Below, piece by piece: positions 2,358-6,674 of a stretch of DNA of 6,853 nt. Source of the DNA: Deltaproteobacteria bacterium RIFOXYA12_FULL_61_11 (lineage in GTDB: Bacteria > Bdellovibrionota_F > JAHFAK01 > YA12-FULL-61-11). The stretch lies in contig MGSU01000233.1 in NCBI GenBank assembly GCA_001799195.1, positions 1 through 6,853 of the forward strand, given 5' to 3'. A program made the translations under genes and the position numbers. How positions within the stretch are numbered: the stretch's first letter is position 1; each line of letters begins with the position of its first letter. Below the pieces are notes generated by a model that searched no databases, was not told the DNA's origin, and worked only from the letters and a program-made list of their open reading frames with translations.

Positions 2358-3698
2358 TCAGACCAAACCTTGCTCGATCATGGCTTCGGCGACGTTGCGG
2401 AAGCCGGAGATGTTCGCGCCCAGAACGTAGTCGTCGGGCCGGCCGAACTCCTCGGACGCGGCGCGGCAGTTCTGGTGGATATCGACCATGATCTGGTGCA
2501 GCCTTTGGTCGACCTCCTCGCGGGTCCAGCGCAGGCGCATACTGTTCTGGCTCATCTCGAGACCTGAACAAGCTACGCCGCCGGCATTCGACGCCTTGCC
2601 GGGGGAGTAGAGGATACCCGCGGTGCGGGCCGCCTCGACCGCCTCGAGGGTGAGGGGCATGTTCGCACCCTCGGCGATACAGGTGCAGCCGTTGGACACC
2701 AGCCGTTTGACGTCCTCGGCGTCCATCTCGTTCTGGATGGCGCAGGGGAAAGCGACCTGACAGGGGATCTGCCAGGGACGCTTGCCTGCGTGGAAACTCA
2801 CGCCGAATTCGTCGGCGAAGTCCTTGACTCGGTCGTGCCCGCTGGCGCGCATCTCCAGCATGAACTCGATCTTGTCTCCGCGGATGCCCGAGGGGTCGTG
2901 GACCATGCCGTCCGGACCCGAGATGGTGACGACCTTGCCGCCGAGTTCCTCGAGTTTCTTTGCCACGCCCCAGGCCACGTTGCCGAAGCCGGACACGGCG
3001 CAGGTCTTGCCCTCGACCGAAGCGCCGCGGGTGCGGAGCATCTCTTGGGCGAAGTAGACACAGCCGAAGCCGGTAGCTTCCGGCCTGACCAGGCTGCCTC
3101 CCCACTTGAGGCCTTTTCCGGTGAGCACGCCCTCGAAGGAATTGCGGATGCGTTTGAACTGGCCGAAGAGGTAGCCGATCTCGCGGCCGCCCACGCCGAT
3201 GTCACCTGCCGGGACGTCGGTGTCGGCGCCGATGTGACGGGAGAGTTCGGTCATAAAGCTCTGACAGAAGGTCATCACCTCGCCGGGAGTCTTGCCCTTG
3301 AGGTCGAAGTCGCTGCCGCCCTTGCCTGCTCCCATGGGAAGACCGGTGAGCGAGTTCTTGAACATCTGTTCGAAGCCCAGGAACTTGAGCGCACTGAGGG
3401 TGACTGTGGAGTGGAAGCGTAGGCCGCCCTTGTAGGGACCGAGGGCGCTGTTGAACTCGACCCGATAGCCTCGGTTGACATGGTAGTCGCCGCGGTCATC
3501 CTTCCAGGGCACTTTGAAGAAAATGGTCCGTTCGGGCTCGACGATGCGTTCGAGGATCTTCTCCTTCTGGTAACGGGGATCCCGATCGACCAGGGGTTCG
3601 ATCGACTCGAAGACCTCGGTCACCGCCTGGATGAACTCCTTTTCCCAGGGATACCTCTTCCTGACATCGTTGAGTACCTCGGCGACATACGTGTTCAT
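2358..3698 (-). CDS. gdhA: Glutamate dehydrogenase, hexameric ~450-residue family, coenzyme site of NAD type
   Basis: This cytoplasmic enzyme interconverts L-glutamate and 2-oxoglutarate plus ammonia, joining nitrogen assimilation or catabolism to the TCA cycle. The 446-residue product is full length for the small hexameric family. The N-terminal substrate domain has GPYKGGLRFH (Lys90), KFLGFEQMFKNSL (Lys114), LPMGAGKGGSDFD (catalytic Lys126) and DVPAGDIGVGGREIGY (catalytic Asp166). A Rossmann domain follows with SGFGNVAWG (236-244) and, after its second strand, SGPDG (260-264); the substrate region returns with NAGGVACSGLEMSQNS (Ser378). Phe238 and Pro262-Asp263 match, as I recall it, the NAD-dependent Clostridium symbiosum enzyme; E. 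coli NADP-GdhA has Ser in the first position and SDSSG in the second. NAD preference is therefore inferred, despite the family often being auto-labelled NADP-specific. The ATG at 3698 has AGGAGA six bases upstream. It lies 30 bases after the ATP-grasp gene, probably in one transcript. Confidence 0.97.
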   Translation of the reverse strand: MNTYVAEVLNDVRKRYPWEKEFIQAVTEVFESIEPLVDRDPRYQKEKILERIVEPERTIFFKVPWKDDRGDYHVNRGYRVEFNSALGPYKGGLRFHSTVTLSALKFLGFEQMFKNSLTGLPMGAGKGGSDFDLKGKTPGEVMTFCQSFMTELSRHIGADTDVPAGDIGVGGREIGYLFGQFKRIRNSFEGVLTGKGLKWGGSLVRPEATGFGCVYFAQEMLRTRGASVEGKTCAVSGFGNVAWGVAKKLEELGGKVVTISGPDGMVHDPSGIRGDKIEFMLEMRASGHDRVKDFADEFGVSFHAGKRPWQIPCQVAFPCAIQNEMDAEDVKRLVSNGCTCIAEGANMPLTLEAVEAARTAGILYSPGKASNAGGVACSGLEMSQNSMRLRWTREEVDQRLHQIMVDIHQNCRAASEEFGRPDDYVLGANISGFRNVAEAMIEQGLV

Positions 3699-3728: not shown

Positions 3729-6674
3729 CTACGACAACGGTTTGCGGATCACCCCGCGCCGTCGTTTACCGTCGACCTTGATCACGACCGGAGCCTCGGT
3801 ACGCAGGTGTACCGTATAGGTCTGCTCCAATCGGGGAATCTGTTGTTCCAAGTAGTCCCAGTCGAGAAAACAATCGCCCCCACCGAGTTGGAGGGAAAAA
3901 TAGGGGATGGAGCGCGAGGTGATGTTCTGGAAGAAGTGGCTGCCCTGCGAGGGATCAGCATAGAACCCCTCTATCTCGGCTTCGACGATGGCGCCGACCT
4001 GGCTGATCTGGTCCCAGGTCAAGGGAATACCGACGAAGGGATCGGCTGTCCCGAGCCGTCCGATGCCGATGAGCAAGTACCGTCGTTCCTCGTCTTCCAT
4101 ACTGCGATTGATCGTGGCTATCTCTTCCGCGATCTCCCTGGTCTTCTGGTTGGTGAAGGTCCTTCGTTTCACTACCACGATATCGAAGAGGTCGTCGAGA
4201 ATACCGTTGCCCAGGGCCTGGTTCGAAGCGACGATGATGTTGTTGTGATCTTCATCCTGCTTGTCGAAGGTCACATGTTCTTTCTTCACCACCAAGGGGC
4301 GGGCTTGCAGGAGGTAGAAGTGGGGCACGGACTTGTTCGTCCGTTCGAAGTCGACAGCGAACTCGATCTCCACGTCCTTGGCCATGGCGTTGGTCAGAAC
4401 ATCAAGCAGCTCGCGCACGATCCGCGAGAGGGGGTAGGTCTCGTAGCGGACGATGTTTTCGAAGGTGAGGACCACGGGGCCCGGTTGGCCGTTGTTGGGG
4501 CGGAGTTGTTGGGACTCGACCTCGAAGATGCTGCTGATGGCCTGGACGCTGCGATCCTCGCGGACCCGGCGCACGGGGAGTTGGACCAGGGTATCGAGTT
4601 CGTCGTGGAAGTTGTCGGGGACCTCTGCGCGTAGGTCCAAGGCGTAGAAATCCTTCTGACTGTTCTCGAAGATGGTGTCCATACTGCTGAATTGGGGCAG
4701 GATCTCCGGGTAGACCGGACAGTACCGGAACGCCTTGCCTCCACCCACGATCGTATTGCCGAGACCGAGGGCGATGTTGACCACGCCGTCGGAGGGGCGG
4801 ATGTGAGAGACCGGGTAGAAGTTGTAGCTCTGGGCGACCCCGGAGAACGTGGGATAGAAGAGCCCTTTGAACTCGTGCCCGACGACTTCTTGCAGCAAGA
4901 CGCCCATCTTCTCGTCCTCGAGGACGAACGGCGTACTCTGGAAATAGGCTTTGCTCTTCTGCAGATAGGTCGAGGCGTACACCAGTTTGATGGCCCGCTC
5001 GAGCTGGGCGATGCGCTGGATCTGCAGAGGGGCGTTGTTGGGAAGCATGTAGGTGGCGTAAATACCGGCAAAGGGCAGGAAACGGCTGTCCTCGAGCAGG
5101 CTGGAAGAGCGCACGGCGAGCGGTGTGGTGAAGGTTGAGCTGAGATCCACCAGCATACCCTTGACCGGGTCGGGCAGCTCGGCGGCGAGAAAGGAGGACA
5201 AGACCTGGGAGTCGGTACCCTCGAGGGCTACGTCGAGGAGCTCGTTCTGCTCGATGAAGGTATCGAATTCGTCCGTGCTGAGGCAGATGGTCCTGGGCAC
5301 CCTGATCTTGAGGTCGCGGAATTCGCTGCGCAGCTTGCTCGAACCGAGCAGATAATGGCCGAAGGTCACGCTGCGGGCCTTGCCTCCCAATGGGCCGCCA
5401 CCGAAATGGATGACATTGGATTCGAAATCGCCGGGGCGGTACTGGACCATGAGTCCGCTCTGTTTGGCCTCTCGATACCTACCGAGTACATAGAGTAAGA
5501 AATGGCGAACCTTGGCAGGGTCGTTGCCCAAGTCCGAGACCTTGATCGGTCGCAGGGAGAAAGCGATCTCGTGCTCTCCGCGTGCGGTCAACCAGAGCGA
5601 GAAATGGTTTTGCAGGGCGTGGTAGAGCAGACAGTCGTCCGGGATCTCGGCGATCTTCTCGTGGAATTCCCGCAGGGTGGTCGCCTGACCGAAGGACTCG
5701 CCCTTGGCATTGTGGAAGTTGAAGGGGCCGAAACCCATCCGCTCGCGCAGGAAGTCGTTGATGATGCTCATGCCGTGGGATGACTTCTTGTGCAGGAAGG
5801 TCACTCCGAGCTGTTCGGCCTTGATGCGATTCTCGGCCTGGGAGGACATGAGGACGAAGGGGAGGAAGGGATAGCTGACGCGTACGGCGTCGATCAGGAT
5901 TGCCCCGGCGTTCTTGTCTTTATGTCCTTGGTAGTAGAACACCGTGTCGGTGAGCACGGCCAAGAGGTGATCTCCGTATTCGTCAACCACCTCTTGTGCT
6001 TCCTCGACGCTGTGGCAGAGGAGGATCTTGGGCCTCGTCTTCATGCCCATGATCTTCTGGTAATCGTCGATCCCTTCTTTGGTGAGGAGCTGGGTTTGTT
6101 GCATCACCTTTGAATACAGGATCGGGAGGAACTTGGAGTAGAAGTCGACCGAGTCCTCGACGAGGAGGATGAGTTTGATGAAACCGGTTGCGGCCACGTC
6201 GTGGGCCACATTGAGCTTGTCTTCGATGTATTTGATGATGGCGAAGAAGATGTTGGTGTTGCCGTTCCAGAAGAAGACGCCGTCGAAGGCCGAGCGGCGC
6301 TTGTGCAAGAGGATGGTGTCCAGCATCGAGGGATCGCTGAGCAGGAGCACCACCGGGAGTTTGGGATGACCGGTCTTGATCTGCTTCGATAGGCCGAAGG
6401 CGTTGGTGTCGGGCAGGTCCATCATGGTGATGACCAGGTCGAAGTGCCGGTGTTCGAGAATCTCGGCGACCTCGCCGGCCGAACCGACCCGGGTCACTCT
6501 CGGGACATGGAGCAGGTTGAGCACCGAGTATTCTTGCCAGATGCGCTCGGCCAAGTGGCCGTCCTTCTCCAGGATGAAGGCGTCATAGAGATTGGCGACG
6601 AGCAGGATCTCCTGGACCTTGAAGGGCATGAGATCCAGTAGCGTGTTGATTTCCATGAACCTGTTGGTGGTCAT
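3729..6674 (-). CDS. Receiver-PPDK_N fusion protein: two receiver-like domains, PEP-synthase-type ATP-grasp domain, novel C-terminal domain
   Basis: A 981-residue soluble protein, counted from the ATG at 6674. Residues 20-156 form a receiver-like fold lacking the acidic pair (Ala27-Asn28) and the phosphoacceptor (Met84 in DLVITMMDLP). Residues 166-311 form a second receiver with the full set in place: Glu173/Asp174 (LLVEDS), Asp243 (AVLTD), Ser277 and Lys296, plus a roughly 25-residue insertion near 187-216. A conserved helical segment follows (330-400; YHALQNHFSLWLTARGE). Residues about 424-795 are the PPDK_N/PEP-synthase ATP-binding domain: GGGPLGGK (Lys432), AVRSSSLLEDS (Arg522, Glu528), FAG, LLQEVVG, GLGNT and LLQARP (Gln790, Arg792). 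The C-terminal part (796-981) has LLIGIGRLG, GIPLTWDQIS and DPSQGSHFFQN, but no phosphohistidine swivel domain (no TSHAA-type motif) and no PEP-binding barrel, so it is not a PEP synthase. Likely an ATP-dependent phosphotransfer protein controlled by phosphorylation; its target is unknown. An upstream GTG at 6791 and ATG at 6749 are possible starts but add unconvincing sequence; ATG 6656 is also possible. Confidence 0.93.
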   Translation of the reverse strand: MTTNRFMEINTLLDLMPFKVQEILLVANLYDAFILEKDGHLAERIWQEYSVLNLLHVPRVTRVGSAGEVAEILEHRHFDLVITMMDLPDTNAFGLSKQIKTGHPKLPVVLLLSDPSMLDTILLHKRRSAFDGVFFWNGNTNIFFAIIKYIEDKLNVAHDVAATGFIKLILLVEDSVDFYSKFLPILYSKVMQQTQLLTKEGIDDYQKIMGMKTRPKILLCHSVEEAQEVVDEYGDHLLAVLTDTVFYYQGHKDKNAGAILIDAVRVSYPFLPFVLMSSQAENRIKAEQLGVTFLHKKSSHGMSIINDFLRERMGFGPFNFHNAKGESFGQATTLREFHEKIAEIPDDCLLYHALQNHFSLWLTARGEHEIAFSLRPIKVSDLGNDPAKVRHFLLYVLGRYREAKQSGLMVQYRPGDFESNVIHFGGGPLGGKARSVTFGHYLLGSSKLRSEFRDLKIRVPRTICLSTDEFDTFIEQNELLDVALEGTDSQVLSSFLAAELPDPVKGMLVDLSSTFTTPLAVRSSSLLEDSRFLPFAGIYATYMLPNNAPLQIQRIAQLERAIKLVYASTYLQKSKAYFQSTPFVLEDEKMGVLLQEVVGHEFKGLFYPTFSGVAQSYNFYPVSHIRPSDGVVNIALGLGNTIVGGGKAFRYCPVYPEILPQFSSMDTIFENSQKDFYALDLRAEVPDNFHDELDTLVQLPVRRVREDRSVQAISSIFEVESQQLRPNNGQPGPVVLTFENIVRYETYPLSRIVRELLDVLTNAMAKDVEIEFAVDFERTNKSVPHFYLLQARPLVVKKEHVTFDKQDEDHNNIIVASNQALGNGILDDLFDIVVVKRRTFTNQKTREIAEEIATINRSMEDEERRYLLIGIGRLGTADPFVGIPLTWDQISQVGAIVEAEIEGFYADPSQGSHFFQNITSRSIPYFSLQLGGGDCFLDWDYLEQQIPRLEQTYTVHLRTEAPVVIKVDGKRRRGVIRKPLS

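Follow-up and report, generated by a model that had tools for sequence, protein, structure and literature searches.

Some kinases related to PPDK are split, and these pass phosphate from ATP through a histidine of a swivelling domain to acceptors other than pyruvate (PMC12167813). Rifampin phosphotransferase resembles the protein described here, as do the split kinases HpeHI, CreHI and PpsAB (phenylphosphate synthase): all combine an ATP-grasp domain with a swivel domain, which is putative in our protein, have a known or predicted non-pyruvate acceptor and do without a PEP barrel (PMC12167813). They differ from our protein in keeping a substrate-binding domain and a GGxxxH motif. PpsA and PPDK share with it a PPDK_N ATP-grasp domain that has the catalytic residues; the small domain behind the ATP-grasp of our protein superposes on their His-domain region. 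Unlike them, our protein has no PEP/pyruvate barrel, its candidate His domain is undetectable by sequence, two receivers stand in front and its gene partner is glutamate dehydrogenase (GDH). To our knowledge, none of rifampin phosphotransferase, HpeHI, CreHI and PpsAB has receivers. In actinobacteria, GDH and the 2-oxoglutarate node have dedicated regulators, such as GarA and OdhI, that are controlled by phosphorylation, a likeness of role; these are FHA proteins phosphorylated by Ser/Thr kinases, and their fold and mechanism are unrelated to those of our protein. We found no paper on the receiver-PPDK_N architecture or on its GDH linkage in the open literature that we searched.

The window, the whole stretch of 6,853 nucleotides that was analysed, is one entire contig of a draft genome (G000:C233:1-6853). 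The ORF for the receiver-PPDK_N protein encodes 981 aa on the minus strand, from the ATG at 6672-6674 to the last sense codon at 3732-3734, with the stop codon reaching to 3729. The features of this gene and of the gene downstream are as follows.

3729..6674, minus strand: REC-REC-PPDK_N-(putative) swivel protein, 981 aa, stop codon included (ORF, Pfam and AlphaFold)
6207..6617, minus strand: receiver fold 1, a pseudo-receiver, approximately residues 20-156; residues 19-156 of the model match receiver structures, e.g. PorX
5730..6179, minus strand: receiver fold 2, residues 166-315; Z about 12-15 to receiver structures
5457..5717, minus strand: helical linker with weak DUF5752 similarity, about residues 320-406 (Pfam and model)
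4293..5444, minus strand: PPDK_N ATP-grasp domain, about residues 411-794 (PF01326 and structure matches)
3732..4292, minus strand: C-terminal domain, proposed to be a diverged swivelling phosphohistidine domain, residues 795-981 (AF2 pLDDT 89 when modelled alone)
3936..3938, minus strand: codon of H913, the proposed phosphorylated histidine, an invariant residue in the motif SQG[S/T]HFFQN
2358..3698, minus strand: GdhA, the NADP-specific glutamate dehydrogenase, 446 aa (710.8 bits to NF006929, cut-off 536)

The AlphaFold model of the full protein (72 sequences, pLDDT 84.5) places the domains in the order receiver fold 1, receiver fold 2, helical linker, ATP-grasp, C-terminal domain. Within the linker, Pfam gave a weak DUF5752-like stretch near residues 330-368, and H352 is near-invariant among 110 family members. 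A PDB sequence search with the protein yielded nothing beyond weak receiver and RPH matches. Two further ORFs occupy the minus strand of the window: a 658-aa lipoprotein-like ORF at 291-2267 without a Pfam match, the first half of which resembles a glycerophosphodiester phosphodiesterase by eye (HSLELDLHLRQGQVVVNHD), and, at 2-184, the start of a protein that the end of the contig truncates and that has a weak B12-binding match below threshold.

Pfam PPDK_N (PF01326) matched residues 429-807 with E 2.2e-33, and comparison with the PpsA, RPH and PPDK structures gave Z scores of 18-26. A first-pass annotation, made from the DNA letters and their translations, had described the ATP-binding half as intact (GGK, AVRSSS..ED, LLQARP), and this holds: the residues it named are present, and K432, R522-S524, E528-D529, E769, E771 and Q790 are invariant in the 110 family members, with R or K at position 792. 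In the full model, residues 411-980 superpose on residues 4-467 of PEP synthase 2ols (Z 25.6, 366 residues), and residues 419-980 on residues 7-511 of PPDK 1dik. The PEP/pyruvate-binding barrel is missing; there was no match to a PEP-binding family, and in the barrel's stead the protein has its domain of 185 residues and ends at residue 981. NCBIfam gave partial, weak matches to PEP synthases and their relatives, all far below cut-off, and in the clustered gene neighbours of relatives (84 loci) no PEP-utilizer gene recurred. In agreement with the first-pass annotation, the 981-aa protein is not a PEP synthase, it has no PEP domain, the database label misleads and the phosphate acceptor has to be elsewhere. 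If the reading given below is true, labels such as 'PEP synthase-like' and 'PEP/pyruvate-binding domain-containing' on hundreds of proteins would be corrected.

The same annotation held that the phosphohistidine domain was absent and that residues 796-981 were unrelated to it. Sequence profiles agree as far as they go: PF00391 (PEP-utilizers) had no match in the protein either in Pfam or in a profile search of the genome, and an HHalign comparison of 69 C-terminal sequences with PEP-utilizer domains from the same and other genomes returned a probability of 0.2. The isolated domain, however, models confidently (pLDDT 89) in what appears to be a swivelling beta/beta/alpha fold. Foldseek gave no match below E 0.001, and the best of 1000 realigned chains was the central domain of PPDK (386-510; 113 residues, 3.2 A) at Z 6.7, which is weak when taken alone (<8) and falls within the range of models without true relatives. 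The C-terminal domain of Bacillus stearothermophilus pyruvate kinase, which is PEPUT-like, came a close second, and the N-terminal domains of two Enzyme I chains are among the top eleven matches, as are other PPDKs. Many of the remaining matches (LD-carboxypeptidase, aconitase, chaperonin apical, protease-associated and RraA-like domains) likewise have a fold of the swivelling beta/beta/alpha class.

H913 lies in S-x-G-[S/T]-H-F-F and is invariant in 110/110 relatives. It is the first residue of the modelled helix 913-920, between strands 893-899 and 925-928, and so an invariant histidine stands at the start of a helix after an IVT-type strand, where PPDK has its catalytic histidine. H913 is also found in paralogs that lack receivers or carry a nucleotidyltransferase domain (see below). 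The T/SxxGGxxxH loop motif of known swivel domains (PMC12167813) is absent, with SxG[S/T]H in its place. On account of the fold, the position after the ATP-grasp domain and the invariant histidine, the C-terminal domain is probably a strongly diverged swivelling phosphohistidine domain, and the statement that such a domain is absent was probably wrong.

By tblastn, Parabacteroides, Phocaeicola and Prevotella were found to have full-length homologues with 36-38% identity. A scan of GTDB contigs confirmed at least 549 relatives, the best 80 of which were kept; these are mostly from Bacteroidota, with further labels of Delongbacteria, Aegiribacteria, Eisenbacteria, Bdellovibrionales, Myxococcota, Acidobacteria and Bacillota, although metagenome-bin labels can be wrong. 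No relatives were found in the viral contigs searched. The ATP-grasp and C-terminal domains also occur together in three other architectures: tandem paralogs of 1150-1410 aa that carry one more domain at the N-terminus, a 575-aa form consisting of the two shared domains alone, and a form of ~1060 aa with a nucleotidyltransferase domain at its C-terminus. The longer tandem paralog lies directly upstream of the receiver-PPDK_N gene at L014:7461-10916 and at about 25 other loci; by eye, its extra N-terminal domain is sensor-like (GAF-like).

In the window, gdhA lies 30 bp downstream of the 981-aa gene and on its strand, and the gap holds an AGAGGAG ribosome-binding site. No other GDH match was found in the source genome; one other genome of the source group that we compared has neither GDH nor the family gene. 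The first-pass annotation missed this coupling, which is visible within the window. In an unsupervised clustering of neighbours at 84 family loci, from which clusters opposite in strand to conserved genes were left out as shadow frames, GDH was the commonest non-family neighbour (36 loci; 38 by profile). The linkage spans Bacteroidota, Delongbacteria, Aegiribacteria and contigs labelled Bdellovibrionales and Bacillota. Within 700 bp, the receiver gene preceded GDH in 17 cases, the two genes diverged in 10, GDH preceded the family gene in 2 and the genes converged in 2; in a FastTree phylogeny the arrangement changed at least 4 times, the exact place of the window protein on that tree being unsure because of long branches. 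Some loci with long flanks, including L012, L066 and L073, have no GDH nearby.

We also used a sample drawn independently of linkage, consisting of 118 evenly drawn Bacteroidota genomes. Full-length copies numbered 20, in 16/118 genomes, and 16/20 lay no more than 500 bp from a GDH gene; the remainder were 2.4 kb, 15 kb or 46 kb away or on another contig. A strong NADP-GDH was present in 34/118 genomes, among them 15/16 carriers of the family protein, and in the sixteenth carrier GDH was split between contigs. The hypergeometric value for this overlap, before correction for kinship, is 6.8e-9 (1.7e-10 with the split gene counted) and overstates independence because the sampled genomes are related. 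GDH occurred without the family protein in 19 genomes, and the dependence is therefore one-way, as expected for a regulator. The 575-aa paralog, in turn, adjoins a second, divergent GDH in four genomes (G034, G089, G097 and G131). Both GDH/paralog sets stand side by side in G050 and in Delongbacteria, where one locus (L041) reads GDH2-576aa-1056aa-REC protein-GDH1. A functional coupling of the family protein to GDH is, on this evidence, very likely.

Since the gene adjoins GDH in very different bacteria, its product is probably an ATP-powered switch for GDH and not a PEP synthase. Our main reading, to which we give a probability of about 0.5, is that the protein descends from the PPDK/PEP-synthase lineage, having lost the barrel and gained two receivers, and acts as an ATP-dependent phosphotransferase that controls GDH. 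The ATP-grasp domain would bind ATP and, judging by the fold and the invariant residues, transfer a phosphoryl group to H913 on the swivelling domain. This mobile phosphohistidine domain would then hand the group to an outside acceptor, most likely GDH, the activity of which would be changed reversibly; gene context and the two-domain 575-aa paralog beside the second GDH point to this target. The smallest GDH-linked member consists of an ATP-grasp and a putative His domain, and the chemistry shared by the family should therefore run from ATP through histidine to an outside acceptor. The receivers and other N-terminal domains would be add-on control: receiver 2, through D243, may gate the reaction in response to nutrient or redox signals, and the sensor-like N-terminal domain of the longer paralogs may do likewise.

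That GDH itself is the direct phosphoryl acceptor is possible, at somewhat less than even odds. No GDH residue separated linked GDHs from unlinked ones, taken from genomes that lack the family, in the manner of a modification site. At GDH residue 84, 18/19 unlinked GDHs have Ser and 26/39 linked ones Asn, a difference that possibly reflects only phylogeny, and the window GDH has Ser. We propose only tentatively the most extended form of the main reading, namely a PPDK-derived, receiver-controlled, protein-modifying kinase that passes phosphate from ATP via the swivelling histidine to GDH across Bacteroidota and several other phyla, with receiver-less and nucleotidyltransferase-bearing versions serving the second GDH.

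The first-pass annotation had recognized two N-terminal receiver folds ahead of PPDK_N, which the model confirms by matches to receiver structures even though the Pfam receiver match (residues 52-111) is sub-threshold at 22.5 bits against a cut-off of 30.2. Receiver 1 has T83 at the position of the phospho-acceptor Asp and W136 at that of the Lys, and we call it a pseudo-receiver because of these replacements. Receiver 2 has the complete acceptor set of E173, D174, D243, S277 and K296, with D174 kept in 105/110 relatives and the other four in 110/110. In the fold and acceptor set of receiver 2 the protein resembles two-component response regulators; it is unlike them in having an ATP-grasp/His enzyme as its output, a degenerate receiver 1 and no recurrent partner kinase gene; a histidine kinase was not a recurrent neighbour in the clustering of 84 family loci. 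At L140:6785-8858, PAS-type histidine kinase-like and response regulator-like genes lie between GDH and the family gene; the former, in this single genome, is a candidate for a partner kinase.

The complete and invariant acceptor set, the missing recurrent histidine kinase and the frequent tandem pairs of long and short receiver-bearing paralogs would fit an internal phosphorelay, in which phosphate passes from ATP to H913 and on to D243 of receiver 2, either within one molecule or between partners, and the phosphoprotein binds GDH and controls it non-covalently. Such a protein would be an ATP-powered counterpart of a hybrid histidine kinase. We consider this unlikely. The receiver-less 575-aa paralog is also GDH-linked, and the receivers are therefore not needed for the shared function; the histidine kinase-like gene and regulator at L140 could be an ordinary phosphate donor; and we know of no PPDK-type His domain that donates to a receiver.

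A shared operon can also reflect a common pathway instead of regulation. It is quite unlikely, in our view, that the protein is a metabolic dikinase with a small-molecule substrate from the glutamate/2-oxoglutarate node, GDH being its co-transcribed pathway partner and the receivers only tuning it. RPH and HpeHI are precedents, as barrel-less PPDK-like kinases that act on small molecules (PMC12167813), and genes resembling 2-oxoacid:ferredoxin oxidoreductase were the second commonest neighbour (14 loci). However, a separate acceptor-binding domain of the rifampin phosphotransferase/HpeHI type is absent both from the 575-aa paralog, which is ATP-grasp plus small His domain, and from the ATP-grasp/C-terminal half of the window protein, and the receiver and sensor-like domains point to signalling. 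The oxidoreductase-like genes, named by eye as alpha (about 614 aa) and beta (about 342 aa), lie at L014:4399-7283 and at 13 other loci.

The view taken in the first-pass annotation, that the C-terminal domain is new and that phosphate goes to it or to another molecule by new chemistry, draws on the undetected PEP-utilizers profile and on the weak structure scores of the isolated domain. We regard it as improbable in the face of the fold, the position, the invariant histidine at the helix start and the matches to PPDK, Enzyme I and the PEPUT-like domain of pyruvate kinase. Very improbable is a sensor of ATP, ADP and AMP without phosphotransfer, in which the ATP-grasp domain reads the energy charge and the protein is a pure allosteric GDH subunit; pseudo-receiver 1 shows that folds are kept here without their chemistry, but the catalytic ATP-grasp residues and H913 are all invariant over relatives of about 35-40% identity.

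In many gut and anaerobic bacteria, GDH is a main point at which ammonia enters metabolism. Reversible inactivation of Bacteroides GDH in vivo was reportedly described in the 1980s, by a mechanism not known at the time. A gene next to gdhA that encodes ATP-grasp, histidine and receiver domains is a direct candidate that can be tested by knock-out. If the control of GDH by phosphotransfer is true, the PPDK mechanism would extend from metabolites to the regulation of proteins, and Bacteroidota and several other phyla would share a control of nitrogen assimilation. At L041:1694-6607, L092:1993-6954 and L137:1627-6566, the 575-aa paralog is followed by the ~1060-aa nucleotidyltransferase paralog beside the second, divergent GDH, an arrangement that suggests a possible control of that GDH by nucleotidylation.
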